From contig OZ017803.1 of the NCBI GenBank assembly GCA_963969395.1, forward strand, positions 16,740,001-16,804,000: 64,000 nucleotides of DNA. Reading direction: 5' to 3'. The translations under genes were made by a program, and so were the position numbers. Source of the DNA: Pseudoscleropodium purum. Taxonomy: Eukaryota; Streptophyta; Bryopsida; Hypnales; Brachytheciaceae. Below, one piece after another: positions 1 through 33,077 of the stretch. Position 1 is the stretch's first letter. Each line of letters begins with the position of its first letter. Below the pieces are notes generated by a model, which was not told the origin of the DNA, did not search any database, and saw only the letters and a list, made by a program, of their open reading frames with translations.

Positions 1-75
1 GTCACCTAAAACCCGTTCCTTTTGATGTTAGTCCATCAACAACTGAACTCCCTGCCTGTGACCTTCTTGTTTCAG
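1..75 (+). repeat. Intron tail carrying half of a CACTA-like MITE
   Basis: This is the end of a urease intron, closing with a pyrimidine tract and CAG at 75. Bases 1-40 match, on the opposite strand, the inner part of the terminal repeat seen at 2394-2447 and 4796-4850 (shared core GGATTTTAGGTGAC, here GTCACCTAAAACC). The outer CACTATAAGAAA end is missing, so this is a fragment. Confidence 0.6.
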
Positions 76-3000
76 GACTGGCATCTCCGGAAAGACTCCC
101 CTGCTGACCACGAAAGTGGACAAGGAGCACTACGCCCACATGTTCGGTCCCACAACTGGCGACAAGGTGCAACTCGGCGACACCAACTTGTTCCTCCAAG
201 TGGAGAGAGACTTCACCTCCCACGGAGACGAGTGCAAGTTCGGAGGAGGGAAAGTGCTCCGAGACGGAATGGGACAGGCCAGTGGCTATGGGGAACATGA
301 GACGCTGGACTCCGTCATCAGCAATGCGCTTGTGGTGGATTATACTGGGATCTACAAGGCGGATATTGGCATCAAGGGGAGTGTGATTGTGGGGATTGGG
401 AAAGCAGGGAACCCGGATGTCATGGAGGGAGTGACGGAAGGCATGGTGGTTGGGGTATGTGAAAACTCAGGCTCAGGCTCAAACTCAAACTTTTTTTTTT
501 TTTATTGATGTTTTGTTTAGGGTTTAGGGTTTATGTTAATGAGGATTCGAACGTGCCAAGGAATGAGGTGTTTGGATACTGTATGTGAAAGTTATGATGT
601 GGGGGAATCCATGCGTGAATGAAAAGAGGATTTGAACGTGCCGAAGAATGTGTTATTTGGATAGCATCTGCAAAAGTTGTGAAGGTAGGAGTCGAAGTTT
701 GAATGTTTTTGTTTGTGCATCAAAAACAAGAACATGTACTTATTGAGATTGCAAAAAGGATCATTGAAAGTTCCTATTGCCAAAGAAAGAACATTAATAG
801 TTTGAGGCTGGCTTTTAATGCTCTTGTTTGACTACAAGAACTTTGAGGTAAATGAACCTATTGTCATCGAAGTGATTTTAGGATGAAATGTTTGAAAGAC
901 GATTTTAACGCACTGGAGAATGTGGTGTTTGAATGCCGAATGTGAAAGATATGAAAGGGGGGAGTTGAAGTTATGTTGGTAGGTGTTCTGAAATCTGTTA
1001 TGAAATAAGGCTTTGAATCCTCTTAAATTTTGCATTACAAGGTTTTGAGGTAAAAGATCTTTATAATGGAGGATTAATGGAGGATTGAGTTGAGAGTCTA
1101 GGAGAAAAAAACTCAAAAAAGAAACTTGATTTTCACTCTTTAGAAAATTGTTAAGTAGTAGTAGGTACAAGATGGAAAGAAAACCTAAACCGTTATTAAT
1201 TGTATCATTATGCCTCGAATACTCTTGAATAGTATTTGTGAGCTGAGATGGTGGCCTTGATTTTGCAAGGTCAACACAGAAGCATTTGCTGGGGAAGGTC
1301 TGATCCTTACAGCTGGTGGAGTGGACACCCATATTCACTTCATATGTCCACAACTTGCAGATGAAGCCATTGCATCTGGTACTTCTTTCCCTCTTTCTAA
1401 GAAAATGAATTGATGCCGAGTCCTTTGTCAAATGTAATATCTCTTTGACGTTTTGAGAGTCACGTTTAAAACTGGATAATTGGTGGAAAACTAATATAAA
1501 GACAATTAGTCTAAAATTAGACCATTTCAGAAACATCTTCATATATCTTCATGAGCAAAATCTTTCTGGTGAGTTTATGAAATAGTCTAATCTTTACTGA
1601 AGACCTTGTGACCTTGGTTCATTTTCTTTTTTTCATGTTGTTCCTTTATGCTTAGTTCTCTTTGTGCCTTTTCTTCAGGTCTACTTGGAGTGATTTAGTA
1701 AAGATAATAACAGTTTCTCGTTATTCTGTTTCTGGTGACTCTACCAAGTTGTAGCTTGTTTGGACGTCCTCTAGTCGTGTCTTATCTAAGTGGTGATAAC
1801 AGTGGCATACAAAATAAGTCATCTATTCACCATTCAGTCGCATAAATCATTCTTTAGCAGTTGTGGGAACTCAATCTTCTCCATTGTAGATGGCAACCCA
1901 AAAAATAATACTTACAAATCTGACATTCACTGTAAGTGGCCAGTATGTTCCTACAGGGTTTTGGGTATCTTGCACGTGACATGAGCTTATGATTTTCCAC
2001 AAAAGAATTTGGATTCCTCTTCCAAGGGTGTTGAGGCATCTCCTCAAAATGTTATGCTCAAAATAACACAAATTTGGGAAATTTTTATCAGGCATTACGA
2101 CGCTGGTAGGGGGTGGGACTGGGCCAGCCCATGGCACTTGTGCAACAACGTGCACCCCAGCTCCAGAGCACATGCGTCTCATGTTGCAGGCCACAGACCA
2201 GTTTCCTCTCAACATTGGCTTTACTGGCAAGGTATGAACTTCTAAATTTTCGTCACATTTTAACATCTCTGGGCTTTGGTTAGGACCCATCGGTGCAAGG
2301 CCATGTCTCTTTGGAGGTACTCTTTTCATCCTAGTGAGGTTAGTACATGACTTAGCAAGTGTGGTACACATGGTTTGAAAAAACACGCATAATCACTATA
2401 AGAAACCAAAGTTTATTGACGTCAAAAAGAACGGATTTTAGGTGACATTGAAAAAAACCTCATGGACCTTTTTCTCATTGCGCCTCATGGTCCTTTTTCT
2501 CTCTGCAGGGAAACACATCTGATGTGGAAGGGCTGCCAGATATTATACGAGCTGGTGCTGTAGGATTGAAACTCCATGAAGATTGGGGAACCACGCCAGC
2601 TGCAATCAAAAATTGTCTCAACGTTGCTGATGAATATGACATACAGGTAGCTCCCTCTGCCTAATCCTTAGTGCACCTGATGCAACATGACTTTTTGGTA
2701 ATGTTTTTTGAAAACCTATGATGTTTAAGGGCAAAGCATTTGAACCAATATGTGGGAGCATGGTTTCATTAAATCAGTATGAGATCACTATCTCTCACTG
2801 GTGGGATCATTCTAAGTACAAGAGCCAAACTCACTCTATGTATGATGATTTCTTATGCTACCATTCAAACAGTGGGAGGTTGTGGACCACTATTGAAGGG
2901 ATAGTAGATAGTCCCATTTCCATTAAAAGATTAGTGTCCAATTCATGTTTACACTCAACTTACTAATTGAAGATCAACCAAAGGGACTGAAGGTGAGAAG

Positions 3001-11637: not shown

Positions 11638-14600
11638 ATGGAATGGGAATTGAGTAAGGAGAATGTTCAACCCTTGCGCAAGGGGCGCAATGTTGAAATT
11701 CTTAATGAAACTCTCCAAGTCAAGGAGAAGAGCAAGGATCAATCCAAGATACTGGACAGCCAGCGCAGGTTCAATCACACTCTTTTCGAGAATTCTTAGG
11801 ACAGAATTCGGTAGTCAGAAACTGCGTAATTTGTGGCGAATCCTACAAGATACAATTGCAATTTTGCCCCTCGTTCTCAGCGATTAGAGTTTCCTACCTC
11901 TAAAATGTGTACAGTATGGTGGGCGACCTAGACGTCCGTTATCATCGGTTAACTGAAAAGCTTACTCTAGTGTCGCAGCTCCTAAAGTGCAGACACATTT
12001 TTGCTAATCAATGCCACCTTGATCCGCGCAGATCAATGATTGAGGCTATCGACAGCTATGAAGGAGACGATCCGCTTCACCCGTGGCTTCAGTATGCTTA
12101 TCCTCACGCAGCTCCTTAATTTGTACATTCTTGTGCATAATCATTTTTTTGAATCGACATCTGAATCAGAGTATCTCCTCTCATTAATTACGAGGAAAAA
12201 TGATCTGACTGAAGGTGGTGTTAATTTCCGTCAGGTGCATTAGATGGGTGAAAGATGCATATCCATCGGGGGGTTACCAATCTGAACTCCTGCAGGTGGT
12301 CGAGGCCTGCACGCGCACTTTTCAGGATGATGAACGGTACAAGTCGGATGTTCGCTACTTGCGAGTTTGGGTGATTTACGTGAGTTTGTCTCTGACTATT
12401 GAAATGTAGTACGATTCATAACCACACTTAATCCTGACGATGATGTAGTCCTCCTTCTCTACTGTAATATCCTTCTGATCGCGGTTTCTTTTTATTATAT
12501 CAATCCTCTCTGATCCAAGATGACCCTCAATTTAAGATGTGTCCTGAGATAAACATAGTGGAGTATCAGCATCGAGATTGCTTGGTTGCTTAACTGTGAG
12601 GAATTTTGCACTGTTTACAGGCCGATTTATGTAAAGAGCCGCAAGAAATATACCAATTTCTTGAAGCACGTTCTATAGGACAAGACCATGCACTTTTTTA
12701 CGAGGCCTATGCAACTTATAAGGAGTTGTGCAAAAGTTACACCAAAGCGAATGAAATTTTCGAGCTTGGTTTGCGAAGGTAATATATGCATGTTACGCTA
12801 TCTCGTGGATAATTATTATTGTCTTCATGAATGTGTATGTTGTCCTCAGAGCTCTAATTGGAGAGAGTCTTTTGGGTGGCAGGGGTGCACAGCCAACGAC
12901 GAGACTGCAGTTGATGTATCAGAGCTTTCTAAAGCGTATGATGCAACGGAATGAGCGAAAACTCCAAGAGGTAAACCTGAACTGTGTGGACATGACTTCG
13001 TGCATCATGTTAATGCTTTCTTGTCGCAGAAAATCAATCACGACATTCTAAAGCTTATTTTGAGCCATTTGGTTTCTTCTGCTCCTCGCAGGACCAGAAC
13101 GATGTTTTCGAACCAGATAAGTTGCGTCATTTTGGAGACAGCAAAAGTTCTCAAACCCGTGAGTACATCGCTACACTCGACAAAAGCTCTGAAGCAAATT
13201 GTGTTCAATTTGTTGGTCAACTACTATACTTCATCCAGCACAAGATACCTCAAATCATTCTGTTTCAGCTAATGAATAAGGTGTCTGGCCAGGTTCTTCT
13301 GCCAGGAATCCATCATTTGTGCAAGATCAACAACGAAGAAAGATCCAGCAACCACAGGTGTCGAGGTGCGTGCAATTCATTATTCCTCTCGCGCTTGTGA
13401 TGTCTACTATGAAATATAGGGTTATCATTTCTGGGATGATTTCTACGAGACCGCTATGAGTATGGAGATATGGAGTTTGCTCAACAAAGTCCAATTAATC
13501 ACTAACTGTTAAAACTTTCTTCTTCTTGGGTGAAATCTCAATGAATTGGGAGTTCCTAATGACTACCCGATCGTGTGATATGCATGAATACTCGTCTGAC
13601 TACTCACATCCTTCCATATCCTAGCAGGTCAGGGATGGAGATTTTCGTGGATGATGAATTTCATTCTGGAACTCGTTCATCTTCATCTGTTTCTCAACCT
13701 TCCAGCATGCGTGCCGCAGTTAGTACCACATGGAAGAACTTGGGGACCCAGAAAGAAGTTAAGAAGGAGAATGACCAGCAACCTGCAAGATGGACAGAGA
13801 CTAAAGTGCCACGAATTGGTAAAGTCCCAAAACATGTTGAGGCCCACCCACCAATTCAAGTCTTTGTTGACGATGAGTGTGAAGAAGCTCATGCTAGGAT
13901 GAAAGCGAAGAATGCCTCTGTGCCGACAACTACTCTCAGACAACGAGTTGATGGAGCATACGACCTGCGCAGGTATGCTGATCTCCGTATAAATCTAGCA
14001 TGTCATCTGCCAACAATCATGTACAGTACATTATGTATCAATGCCCAGAATTTTAATGCAAGACGGATTGACACTTCTCGTGTACGACTCTAAAACATTA
14101 TAATCTCTGAATAGTCAGTTGGAAAAGTTGAAGGTGTTGATGTGCTCACTGGGAGTTTTTCATAAATACAGAGACCAAGAGGCCTTGCAGAACAATCCAC
14201 TTTTGCATTTCACAGAAAGTGAGAAGCCATCCACTGCCTCGCTACTCCGAAGAGAGCCTGGTAGCACCGTTCGTGAACAAGGTGGGCTTGGAACTATCTG
14301 GTTGAACAGTTTGGTTCGACAATAGCTTTTATCAATCATTTGAGCTGTGTAATTTCGTCAGTTATGCTTTCGTCACGTCAGCTGTTTCATCGGGTGACCG
14401 AATCCACGAAGTTGTTGATAAATTGACGTCTGCCCGTCAGATCCTCGTGCCTTTTGGTGGTTCAAGTCGAATACTGACTGGAGGCCTCTGTTTCTTGATT
14501 GGCATCAGAGAGATCAGAGAGTGGCGATGTCACTACCGCTTCATTGTCTGCAGCTTCGCCGCTACTGGTAGGGTCCGAGATTTACCACGAGAGAGAGGAT

Positions 14601-15815
14601 GGGCACGACTCGAGCTTCGAAGAAGCCAGGCTCTCAAGATGGAAGATCCCTCACCACGCTGTCAATGAGAAGGCAGTGTCCTCACCGCGAAGCTCAGCCG
14701 AGAAGGCGATGCTGATCGAGAAATCGTTGAACATGTTTCAATCCAAGAGTGGGAGGCCAAGTAGCGAGGAACAATCTTCATCGTCCGACAAAGAGCCCGC
14801 GGACAAGTCTTCCATGTCCGACAAGTCTTTTATGTCTCGAGTAAGTTCTTTGAGCTCTATGGACGAGCCGCCTGCTTTTTTTTGCACAATGCCCAGCTCC
14901 CAATTCTCAGTGAACGGAGAAGAAACCGTGGCGATCAAAAAGTATGCCGAGGAGTTGATCACACATGGAGCTGACCCAAACGCTCAGGCAGATATTGGCG
15001 GCCATCAAGGATTAATCGACCAGACCATCAACACAAAAGAGTGCCTCTCCGATATCCTCTCCATGTTCAACAGGCCCCTCGCCTGTGAAAAACCGCAGCG
15101 CAAGGTTAGGGCTAGCACCACCACTTCACATTCTCCTAACTCATTTGAAGTTTTCGTCGATGACTTGGACGATGCCCCTCAACCTCAGAAGAAAATCAAA
15201 GACAGAGCAGCGTTTGAGATCTTCAACGACGACGGAAACGAACCGAAACAGCTTCCATCAAGGAACAAGGGCTTTGAAGTGTTCGTGGATGAAGAAGCGA
15301 GCGCTCCTCCACCTGCCAGAATAAAAAAGCCAGCTTCCAAAAAGCCCTTCCAGATTCTACATGATGAAGAATTCGCCCCGAAACCACCAGCGAAGAAGAG
15401 TTTTGAGGTCTTCACTGATGAAGATATTGTGGAGGTTCAAACAGTGAGGAACCGGGTTGCAAGGCCACCAGCGCGGAAGCCGGCACCCGCACTCTCCAGA
15501 GGTTCATTCGAGATTTTCCCAGATGACGATTTGGATGTCAAAGCCAAGCCAAGTCACGGTTTGAAGATCTTTGAAGACACAGAGTTTTCTAAGCCTTCCA
15601 AAGGATCAACATCCAAGGCTGCTTTCCAGGTTTACGCAGATGATGAATACGACGCCATGCCTGCCCCAAGAAATGTTGACAGAAGGATTCCCCAAAACAA
15701 ACCGGTAAGCAAGCCGCAGAACAATGGATTCTCCATCTTTGTGGACGATGACATGGCTAGTCAGTCTCAACCGGTTCGCAAACCAAAGTTGGCTTCTTCG
15801 AGTACCAGAAGATGA
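11638..15815 (+). CDS. MAD3/BUBR1-type spindle checkpoint protein with ABBA-motif array
   Basis: A mitotic checkpoint component that inhibits APC/C-CDC20. Exons: 11638-11768, 12032-12091, 12235-12379, 12621-12778, 12883-12970, 13092-13158, 13293-13365, 13628-13972, 14172-14281, 14509-15815; 827 residues. KEN1 is at residues 7-9 within ELSKENVQPLRKGR, matching the family helix-loop-helix. A TPR-type Mad3/BUB1 domain spans about 44-195. KEN2 (287-289, KKENDQQPARW) is flanked by ABBA-like MEIFVD (244) and IQVFVD (317). A GLEBS-like BUB3-binding stretch (SSFEEAR, 427-433) and a conserved TINTKECLSDILSMF segment (565-579) follow. Nine more ABBA-like motifs start at 605, 628, 648, 673, 691, 726, 744, 765 and 800. 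There is no kinase domain, so it is MAD3/BUBR1-like and not BUB1. The start is the first in-frame ATG after a TGA 18 bases upstream; it leaves only six residues before KEN1, so an upstream coding exon is possible. Confidence 0.93.
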
Positions 15816-30620: not shown

Positions 30621-33077
30621 TTTTGTATTCCTTCACTTTACCGAATTTGATCTTGAATTTTGGCTTTAGATTTGTGTCAAATTTTTTATTTCTCTCATAA
30701 TTTTTGAAATTTAACAATGAAGTGGTCACTATTGCAAGACCATTTTCTCACTCATTTTTGGTCCTAAAAATACAAGACTTGTTTTTGTACATGTGGAACT
30801 TGGTTACCTTGAAAATGAGCATAGGATGCCAACTTTTTAAAACTTCACATATCAAAAAGAGTCAATTAAAGCACAATTTCAACTACTCCAAAACATTGAT
30901 TTTTTTGCAATACCCTTCACTTCTACATTCTAATCTTCTAATCTATGATTTGGATTGAAACCAAACTTTGAAGAGATGATAAGGACTTAGCTTTCTACGA
31001 GATCCTATAGTTAACTTTGCTTAAAAATGGTAAATTATACTTCAACCTTTTGTAACTTACAAAATCAAGATCCCAAACACCTTCAAAATGACTAGAAAAT
31101 TTAAGGGTTAATATTTGAATGAATGGTCACTATTGGTTTCTAAGCTTGTACAACTCTTAGATTTGCAAATTGAAATTTCAAATATTTCAAAATTCAAAGG
31201 GTTCTCATATATAATTTTGTACCACATTATATATAACTATGAGATTGTATACCATTACCAAAAAACACTAAGTTAAGCTAAAATTTACATACAATCTAGA
31301 TAAACAATTCCAATGTGAAGTTATAAATCAAAATGCAACATGACTTATCAAATAGCAATATTAATCCTTTCATATATATGTGAAATATAAAGAAAGTTCT
31401 AGAATTAATAGCAAGGACAAAGATGATAGAATTAAAATGACAAATTCAACTTCTTAAATGGAGCAATTTAGGTTCACCATATCAATCAACAGAAATTAAG
31501 GTCCCAAACAATATATACCACAGAAAATAGTGAAATTAGATTGCCCCTCAATTCCATACAAGTATTTACTATTACTACACAAGAATGCACTCCTTTTGAA
31601 TTAGGTATTATTGTAATTGACTCATGAACCTCCACATGTGTACACATGAAAATAATTGCAGAATTGTTTGTTGACTTCGATGGCCTGTAAAAAAACTTTC
31701 TAGAAGTAGGGCACCCTAATTATTCAAGCAACCTAATTTCACTATTTACAACTCCCTAGAGTACTTTGGTTTTGAGATTCAGAAATTTGATGACTGAAGG
31801 GAACTCAGCGACCATATCTGCAAATCGTTTTTTCTAATGATAGACATTTGCAGGAGAAGACAACCAACACTGTAGAATTTCACAAAATAACGTTAACAGC
31901 TTGTTGAAAGGTATTGCACAAATCACATGGACAACAGCTGTTAGTTTACAAATCTGTAACCATGATTATCAGACGATATGTGAGTGGCTTCATCCCAGTT
32001 TGTCAATATTAGCAATTGGAGCACCTTGAGCAAACGGTACAGCTCTTGATCTCACTTATATGCAACAGGCTTGGCATGAGAAAAGGGCATCTTCACGTGT
32101 GAAAATGCACCTGCATCAACACAGCACTGCCAAAGTCAAGCACTTCCGCAGGGTACACCTACAAATCAGCAGAAATATATATTATGACTCGTCCTAGAAA
32201 GACATTGTACCCCAAAACCAGAAAAGCATAATAAGGTTAGTCGTAAAGAGGAACCCCCAAACCCCAAAGGCACAATAAAATTAGTCAAAAAGTGCGAGGA
32301 AACTGGGCTCTCTTCCCCTTTGAATTGAAAAAAACAGAGAACTGGAGACCTAGTTTTGCAACCCAGTTCATCCCTAGTTTTGCTTCCACTGATGAGAACA
32401 CTGATGAGAACTCATGAGCATGAGACATGGGGAACTAGGGGTGTAACTCAAGCCAGGAACCATAAGTTTAGAGCTTAACTCAAGATGAAGTGGTAGACCA
32501 CAGTTTAAGCTTAGCTCGGAACTCCAGACCAAGTCCAGACCACTTTACGATTAATTCTAATATATTGCTGAGAAATAGTTTTAAAATAGGACAGTATCCT
32601 TTCCAAGTCAGTAGGGAACACCTTCCGCAACTTACGACTAATGGGTCAACTTCGGAGTTGCCAGCATTTTACAAAACCTGCAAAAAAAAGTGTCGGACAA
32701 GGAAAGAAGGGTCTACGACGAAATATGTGGATTCCATCATCCGATAGGAACAATTTTTATTCCTAATAAAGTCTAAATGTGAATAAAATTTCCAGCTCTA
32801 CTACTACAGTGCCTACCAGTACAGACATAAAAGCAGTACCCATGAAACCGTCCCCATGCCTATGCCCACCACCATCGAGTTCTGGATGCATGCTGGCATC
32901 TGCTAGCACAGGTGTCGGAAAAAAACAACCTCCCCTACCTCTGTACCATAGATACAAAATATGACCTCGCTATGCCAGAAACAAGAAAGGCCGGGCAGGG
33001 CTTTTCCCCACCAAGCTCGTAATACCCTTAACACATTCAGTTAGCTCCTTTGCATTACCTTTGAGCCAATTGCAGTA
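30620..33077. other. Intergenic DNA and VAP 3' flank
   Basis: AT-rich unassigned sequence to about 31.7 kb, then a more balanced composition up to the VAP stop codon at 33078, which may include a long 3' UTR of that minus-strand gene. Short open frames in both directions show no family features. No gene is supported. Confidence 0.5.

Follow-up and report, generated by a model that had tools for sequence, protein, structure and literature searches.

What does a row of nine ABBA motifs do at the end of a moss checkpoint protein? The question is raised by a 64,000-nucleotide stretch of the Pseudoscleropodium purum genome (assembly GCA_963969395.1, contig OZ017803.1, positions 16,740,001 to 16,804,000, forward strand; the whole of this stretch is called the window below), in which a gene of the MAD3/BUBR1 type ends in an exon that encodes the array. 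We regard the array as real, conserved and presumably a multivalent binding site for CDC20. Its most plausible role, to which we give about an even chance, is that of an expanded docking platform that holds CDC20 beside MAD1:MAD2 and aids assembly of the mitotic checkpoint complex.

Nine ABBA motifs in a tail predicted to be disordered

In the rebuilt ten-exon gene model the array consists of nine motifs between residues 605 and 805 (Table 1), and this rebuild reproduces exactly the nine positions, residues 605 to 800, that a preliminary description of the same DNA had given. The strict ABBA consensus, F-x-[ILV]-[FHY]-x-[DE] as quoted in PMC5179498, is matched by seven of the nine units, again as first described, while FQILHD and LKIFED each deviate at one position. 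When residues 600-827 were shuffled 20,000 times, the seven strict motifs compared with a mean of 0.04 and a maximum of 2. A relaxed pattern, which was widened after the fact to take in all nine units, gave nine matches against a mean of 0.28 and a maximum of 4 in shuffles of the same residues. Across the six reading frames of the 64 kb we counted 4, 1, 11, 4, 2 and 1 strict matches, and the seven of the array belong to the frame with 11.

Each of the nine units is followed by 1-3 acidic residues within the next five positions, and the eight linkers, counted from the fifth residue past each motif, contain 31 Lys or Arg, 23 Pro and 3 Asp or Glu in 115 residues, which agrees with the acidic tails and the basic, proline-rich linkers noted earlier. 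Over residues 605-806 the charge is roughly even (37 acidic vs 32 basic residues), and 16 of the 19 aromatic residues lie within motifs. AlphaFold2 assigns no secondary structure to the array, with a mean pLDDT per ten residues of 37-56, nearly always below 50; the tail is thus predicted to be disordered, and hence to offer an accessible context for ABBA motifs.

The protein that carries the array was compared with 61 fetched proteins, giving a set of 62 in which relatives are labelled by P-numbers; P0002 is the Ceratodon protein, and P0001, P0003 and P0036 were classed as moss-like by similarity. In a tblastn search against the window, the Ceratodon protein found every one of the ten exons, and P0003 all except exon 7. 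The 827-residue product matches the Pfam family PF08311 as well as BUBR1 and Mad3 chains in the PDB, down to 3e-36. A Pfam scan of the product detected no kinase domain, and the kinase end of the Marchantia protein (residues 981 to end) found no significant match in the 64-kb window (best E = 0.6). A KEN1 box, in EWELSKENVQPLR, precedes the TPR domain, and the ABBA1-W-KEN2-W-ABBA2 cassette, whose layout is described in PMC5204127, is complete. Because it combines the TPR domain, KEN1 and the KEN2 cassette and has no kinase, the protein is a MAD-type member, that is a kinase-less MAD3/BUBR1, and is not filed as BUB1; the class assignment made from the bare sequence was correct. The total of eleven ABBA motifs proposed at the same time holds under the relaxed consensus and fails under the strict one, since both copies flanking KEN2 lack the first Phe.

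A MAD1-type helix directly ahead of the array

The array is preceded by a CMI/CD1-like helix, DQTINTKECLSDILSMFNRPL, a putative MAD1-binding site that starts 42 residues ahead of the first ABBA unit, so that the array begins 21 residues past its end. Searched alone against the PDB, DQTINTKECLSDILSMFNRPL returned a single match with E up to 10, the human BUB1 CD1 peptide in complex with MAD1 (7b1f_C, E = 0.5). A ten-copy profile built from the window and nine relatives found the same chain at E = 0.00038, with the next match at 0.44. AlphaFold2 predicts a helix over the CMI, at residues 568-579, and T565 aligns with the phosphothreonine of human BUB1. The comparison indicates that a moss MAD-type protein keeps the CMI. 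Tromer et al. describe the CMI as retained in the BUB1-like paralogue after duplication (PMC5204127), and the moss case may already figure there.

The order of CMI and ABBA is not peculiar to the window. A first CMI pattern matched 28 of the 62 proteins, and we measured the distance from the CMI start (of the last copy, if there are several) to the next relaxed ABBA match. This distance is 41-59 residues in 16 of the 28: 42 in the window, 41-49 in six further moss or moss-like and two liverwort proteins, 59 in Klebsormidium, 51 in P0037, and 49-58 in the kinase-bearing P0016, P0017, P0018, P0044 and P0055. A wider CMI pattern adds Ceratodon P0002 at 47 and Riccia P0008 at 45 residues, and four coral-type proteins at 71-73 (the corals P0040, P0042 and P0043, and P0041). 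The CMI-then-ABBA order therefore recurs in liverworts, Klebsormidium and corals, and is not found in all relatives.

Elsewhere in the set the CMI/CD1-like motif itself is multiplied. It stands in tandem in P0038 (Chlorella sorokiniana, four copies), P0039 (Micractinium tetrahymenae, three) and P0013 (two), and is followed by FxIxEDTQ[FY]-type repeats in P0038 (one seen) and P0039 (three) and by YEDTEF-type repeats in P0013. The MAD1-type site is thus multiplied in these three proteins, two of which have a multiplied presumed CDC20 site as well. Unit 7 of the window with its tail, LKIFEDTEF (15561-15587), stands apart from the remaining eight; it resembles the EDT[EQ][FY] units of P0013, P0038 and P0039.

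A proposed docking platform for CDC20

We propose that the array region represents an enlarged CMI-ABBA module at the C-terminus of a moss MAD3/BUBR1-type protein. The CMI helix at residues 563-583 would bind MAD1:MAD2, and the disordered nine-ABBA tail from residue 605 onwards would attach to the CDC20 WD40 propeller at its side groove. With many weak and equivalent sites next to the MAD2 template, CDC20 could reach a higher local concentration there and rebind more often; CDC20-MAD2 would then form fast, and after it the checkpoint complex, by way of the protein's own KEN1 and ABBA1-KEN2-ABBA2 cassette. As neighbouring sites are spaced 18-35 residues apart, it is uncertain that all of them fill at once, and fast rebinding of CDC20 appears likelier than nine bound CDC20 molecules.

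The precedent for such a module is human BUB1, whose CD1 recruits MAD1 and whose ABBA motif just downstream is thought to position CDC20 (PMC7614552, PMC8391104); CD1 and ABBA each add to CDC20-MAD2 catalysis in vitro (PMC7614552). CDC20 is bound by ABBA peptides (PMC5179498), and in Arabidopsis BMF3 binds MAD1 via a CD1-like domain (PMC12526889). The docking platform also agrees with the report by Tromer et al. that extra ABBA motifs cluster with kinetochore features (PMC5204127). That moss CDC20 binds the motifs, that MAD1 binds the CMI and that the array serves complex assembly are inferences.

The preliminary description had interpreted the array as a multivalent trap for APC/C activators. 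What stands of this idea is a real, conserved and presumably multivalent CDC20-binding array, but a trap leaves out the CMI helix, and with this helix so close ahead of the first unit an assembly platform is at least as likely. Multivalent inhibition of APC/C-CDC20 is nevertheless the main rival to the docking platform: the array, together with ABBA1-KEN2-ABBA2, could clamp APC/C-bound CDC20 or CDH1 after assembly and prolong inhibition, with or without compensating for a lost kinase. We rate this as unlikely, though well worth considering. Multiple D-box and KEN motifs are known to give high-affinity multivalent APC/C binding (PMC8764033), whereas the array adjoins the CMI and not the KEN2 cassette, and the human motif ABBA3 is marginal for the checkpoint. 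The explanations weighed in this study are not mutually exclusive, and the probabilities we attach to them, added to that of the docking platform, come to slightly more than one.

Several observations weigh against a docking platform. The Ser-Pro before the threonine of the CMI, a CDK priming site in humans, is not kept (DQT565 vs human SPT461). Among the 28 CMI proteins, the distance to the next ABBA match is 65-121 residues in five (P0013, P0023, P0034, P0038 and P0046), six lack a relaxed ABBA motif within 350 residues downstream, and the sole ABBA match of P0012 overlaps the CMI. In Tasmannia P0015, the one named protein that represents vascular plants, the CMI-like motif lies at the very end of the protein, with ABBA motifs before it and none after it. 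Arabidopsis CDC20 has His at two positions of the ABBA pocket where human CDC20 has Tyr (PMC9357983), and ABBA3 of human BUBR1 contributes little to the checkpoint, other authors having connected it with silencing (PMC5204127, PMC5179498). Neighbouring sites may not be able to hold CDC20 molecules side by side, and a kinase-bearing moss paralogue might hold the assembly role instead.

The link to silencing suggests a lesser rival, which we consider very improbable: the array would pull CDC20 off ABBA1 and ABBA2 and thereby help to switch the checkpoint off, a role already suggested for ABBA3 of human BUBR1. Work in favour of silencing by ABBA3 is cited by Tromer et al., who also raise competition with ABBA1 and ABBA2 (PMC5204127), but the available parts of the literature yielded no plant data, and silencing leaves the neighbouring CMI unexplained. 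An array of degrons, in which the ABBA motifs would make the protein a target of CDH1 or CDC20, to be ubiquitinated as cells leave mitosis, is also improbable, if less so. ABBA motifs are known in APC/C substrates and cyclin A (PMC9357983), and the whole protein gives a sub-threshold match to the Pfam Cyclin-A APC/C-binding region (E = 0.00063, 20.9 bits vs a cut-off of 24) that is best over unit 9, with no single stretch passing alone. The array, however, contains no KEN box, the only R-x-x-L of the protein is at 172, and nine copies would exceed what a degron should need.

Conservation and history of the array

The closest relatives of the window protein are P0001 (91% identity), Ceratodon (69%), another protein at 61% and Sphagnum (40-43%). 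To separate the motifs from their surroundings, we compared identity to the window at core positions (motif positions 1, 3, 4 and 6) with that in linkers. It amounts to 35/36 vs 127/148 in P0001 (p = 0.043), 31/36 vs 80/148 in P0002 (p = 2.3e-4), 30/36 vs 63/148 in P0003 (p = 7.3e-6) and 30/36 vs 46/148 in P0036 (p = 1.2e-8), all p values being from one-sided Fisher tests. Since all four comparisons are made against the window, they do not count as independent, and the motif definition restricts core positions to hydrophobic or acidic residues, which may by itself slow their change.

Strict motifs number 7 in the window, 6 in P0001, 8 in P0002, and 9 each in P0003 and P0036. By the relaxed pattern, the copies that follow the CMI run from a single one in Klebsormidium through 4-6 (three liverworts) and 7 (three proteins of Sphagnum) to 8-9 in the window, its nearest relatives and Ceratodon. 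Such figures could reflect neutral redundancy, in which one or two ABBA sites are needed and copy number drifts in a fast-evolving disordered tail. Drift would account for the range of 4 to 9 relaxed copies among bryophyte-like proteins, for the state of unit 7, which P0002 has in degenerate form and which the alignment lacks for P0003 and P0036, and for the extra units carried by the latter two. Neutral drift fits poorly with a core better conserved than the linkers in all four comparisons (with their shared reference) and with arrays in Ceratodon, Sphagnum and liverworts, and we give it a low probability, only a little above that of degrons.

Two relatives bear on whether the array is translated at all. 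P0001 is encoded in one frame on a 3145-base contig (805 residues, with about 13 first residues missing) and P0003 in one frame on a 2841-base contig (868 residues). Because the window gene with its introns spans 4178 bases, we read both contigs as spliced; they are most likely transcripts that keep the array in frame. A gene-model artefact, with a last exon untranslated in the modelled frame, is hardly credible, as both contigs hold the whole array in one unbroken frame with the upstream parts, and annotated proteins of Ceratodon and Sphagnum contain the array too. The same read-through weighs against the concern, voiced at the outset, that the array might be spliced out or put out of frame.

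The array had also been described as grown by repeat duplication, of which its DNA retains no visible trace. Tandem Repeats Finder reported no tandem repeat over the units, its only tandem stretch being 29 bases of period 15 at the linker ahead of unit 4 (15324-15352), and a direct-repeat search gave a single 15-base pair, in linkers. When units were scored together with their flanks, all nine window units paired with the same-position unit of P0001, and any duplication must therefore be older than the split from this relative. The same-position unit was the best match for six of nine in P0002 (including unit 1, which is counted although another window unit scores above it), four of nine in P0003 and two of nine in P0036. 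On these scores, one-to-one homology of units is firm for the nearest relative P0001 only. The array predates the split from P0001 and probably that from Ceratodon, and units have turned over since. Arrays in P0023, P0034, P0046 and the alga-like P0013 suggest that such arrays may have been gained repeatedly.

Arrays with and without a kinase domain

The array was first thought to replace affinity or regulation lost with the kinase domain. We rejected compensation for a lost kinase because liverwort proteins have both arrays and a kinase. Marchantia P0007, Riccia P0008 and Calypogeia P0009 all keep the kinase domain, and their array regions hold 4, 3 and 2 strict and 4, 6 and 6 relaxed motifs, respectively; Marchantia is reported to have a single gene of the BUB1/MAD3 family (PMC12526889, 2025). 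By the relaxed pattern, Cryptococcus P0046 joins them, with a kinase and seven motifs, of which five start with Met and two are strict.

In number, arrays are nevertheless commoner without a kinase, as compensation would predict, and strict copies are high in the kinase-less moss-like proteins; both counts favour multivalent inhibition. Chains of at least three strict motifs (past residue 380 and at most 60 residues apart, in the 62 proteins) are present in 11 of the 20 proteins that carry no kinase label and in 2 of the 42 that do, a count that is weakened by kinship within the moss set; in 3,100 shuffles of the 62 proteins no chain of three strict motifs arose. Kinase loss is thus not required for an array, and the compensation part of multivalent inhibition fails. 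The three liverwort proteins, P0046, P0023 and P0034 resemble the window in having an ABBA array downstream of a CMI-like motif; they differ from it in the kinase that the liverworts and P0046 keep, in the mostly Met-initial units of P0046, and in the longer CMI-to-ABBA distance of P0023, P0034 and P0046.

Relation to known systems

An array of this kind is already published, and its discovery value is modest. Tromer et al. (2016) described repeat arrays of ABBA motifs in the MAD protein of a moss, Physcomitrella patens (PMC5204127). The window protein is this MAD or a moss orthologue of it, being likewise a moss MAD paralogue with an ABBA repeat array; the available text of that paper gives no copy number or array mechanism. 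A review lists P. patens BMF2 as Pp3c24_5040 (PMC11794483). Literature searches on the ABBA motif in Marchantia, or on the Bub1 CD1 in the Chlorella kinetochore, returned no paper.

Human BUB1 shares the arrangement of a CD1/CMI helix followed by ABBA, as the match to 7b1f_C reflects. It is described with one ABBA motif, whereas the window protein has nine, with no KEN box beside them, no kinase and no Ser-Pro, and has the module in a protein of MAD type that also carries KEN1 and the KEN2 cassette. In human BUBR1, which is MAD-type too, ABBA3 (ABBA-528) likewise follows the KEN2 cassette on the C-terminal side, but is a single motif, unlike the nine of the window. The Arabidopsis proteins BMF2 and BMF3 belong to the same BUB1/MAD3 family, BMF2 being BUBR1-like and BMF3 carrying the MAD1-binding CD1-like domain (PMC12526889). 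According to these descriptions, Arabidopsis divides between proteins the functions that the window protein, with KEN1, the KEN2 cassette and the CMI, joins in one.

A more specific version of the docking platform seems possible to us, if doubtful: bryophyte MAD-type proteins may have multiplied the single CDC20 site beside the MAD1:MAD2 template, within the very protein that holds CDC20 in the finished complex. If so, one kinase-less protein would recruit MAD1, concentrate CDC20 and receive CDC20-MAD2, the number of motifs would set checkpoint strength, and trebouxiophyte algae, with their multiplied CMI, would have applied the same solution to MAD1. The numbers of CDC20-docking copies next to a conserved MAD1-type site form a natural series, found in plants that are well suited to genetics. 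Such a series could show whether ABBA multiplicity tunes the speed or the duration of mitotic checkpoint arrest.

Features of the window

Table 1. Features of the MAD3/BUBR1-type gene and of other parts of the window (positions within the 64,000 nucleotides)
Feature	Position	Strand	Remarks
MAD3/BUBR1-type gene	11638-15815	+	ten exons, all introns GT-AG; spliced model of 827 residues
Exons 1-5	11638-11768, 12032-12091, 12235-12379, 12621-12778, 12883-12970	+	spliced model
Exons 6-10	13092-13158, 13293-13365, 13628-13972, 14172-14281, 14509-15815	+	spliced model
KEN1 box	11656-11664	+	residues 7-9
Mad3_BUB1_I (TPR) domain	11761-12773	+	residues 42-163, exons 1-4; PF08311, E = 1.4e-44
ABBA1 MEIFVD	13635-13652	+	residues 244-249; non-canonical first residue (no Phe)
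KEN2 box	13764-13772	+	residues 287-289, flanked by two tryptophans
ABBA2 IQVFVD	13854-13871	+	residues 317-322; non-canonical first residue (no Phe)
SFEEARLSRW, possible GLEBS core	14613-14642	+	FEE, R, L and W invariant in 11 alignment rows (moss, moss-like, liverwort)
Conserved stretch NGEETVAIKKYAEELI	14913-14960		modelled helix
CMI/CD1-like helix, putative MAD1-binding	15018-15080	+	residues 563-583
ABBA array, all units	15144-15746	+	residues 605-805
Array unit 1 FEVFVD	15144-15161	+	residue 605
Array unit 2 FEIFND	15213-15230	+	residue 628
Array unit 3 FEVFVD	15273-15290	+	residue 648
Array unit 4 FQILHD	15348-15365	+	residue 673; off strict consensus (L, position 4); FEIFQD in Ceratodon
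Array unit 5 FEVFTD	15402-15419	+	residue 691
Array unit 6 FEIFPD	15507-15524	+	residue 726
Array unit 7 LKIFED	15561-15578	+	residue 744; off strict consensus (L, position 1)
Array unit 8 FQVYAD	15624-15641	+	residue 765
Array unit 9 FSIFVD	15729-15746	+	residue 800; FSIFVD or FSIFID there in four aligned relatives
Open frame, presumably plant urease	62-505	+	
Rfam 5_ureB_sRNA match	1236-1353	-	40.3 bits vs cut-off 40
tRNA-Ile	32890-32980	-	anticodon TAT; 91 bases

Upstream of the CMI, the stretch SFEEARLSRW may be the core of a GLEBS, the BUB3-binding motif; a profile search gave 14 weak PDB hits, with no GLEBS chain among them. A second stretch, NGEETVAIKKYAEELI, conserved in the same 11 alignment rows, lies between the KEN2 cassette and the CMI and might be what Tromer et al. 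call the MadaM motif (PMC5204127).

Other features lie outside the gene. Near the start of the window, an open frame, recognised by eye, reads like a plant urease. The Rfam match to 5_ureB_sRNA, just above its cut-off, probably reflects urease coding sequence and not an RNA gene. Further downstream, on the reverse strand, the window contains a tRNA-Ile in which an intron is possible.
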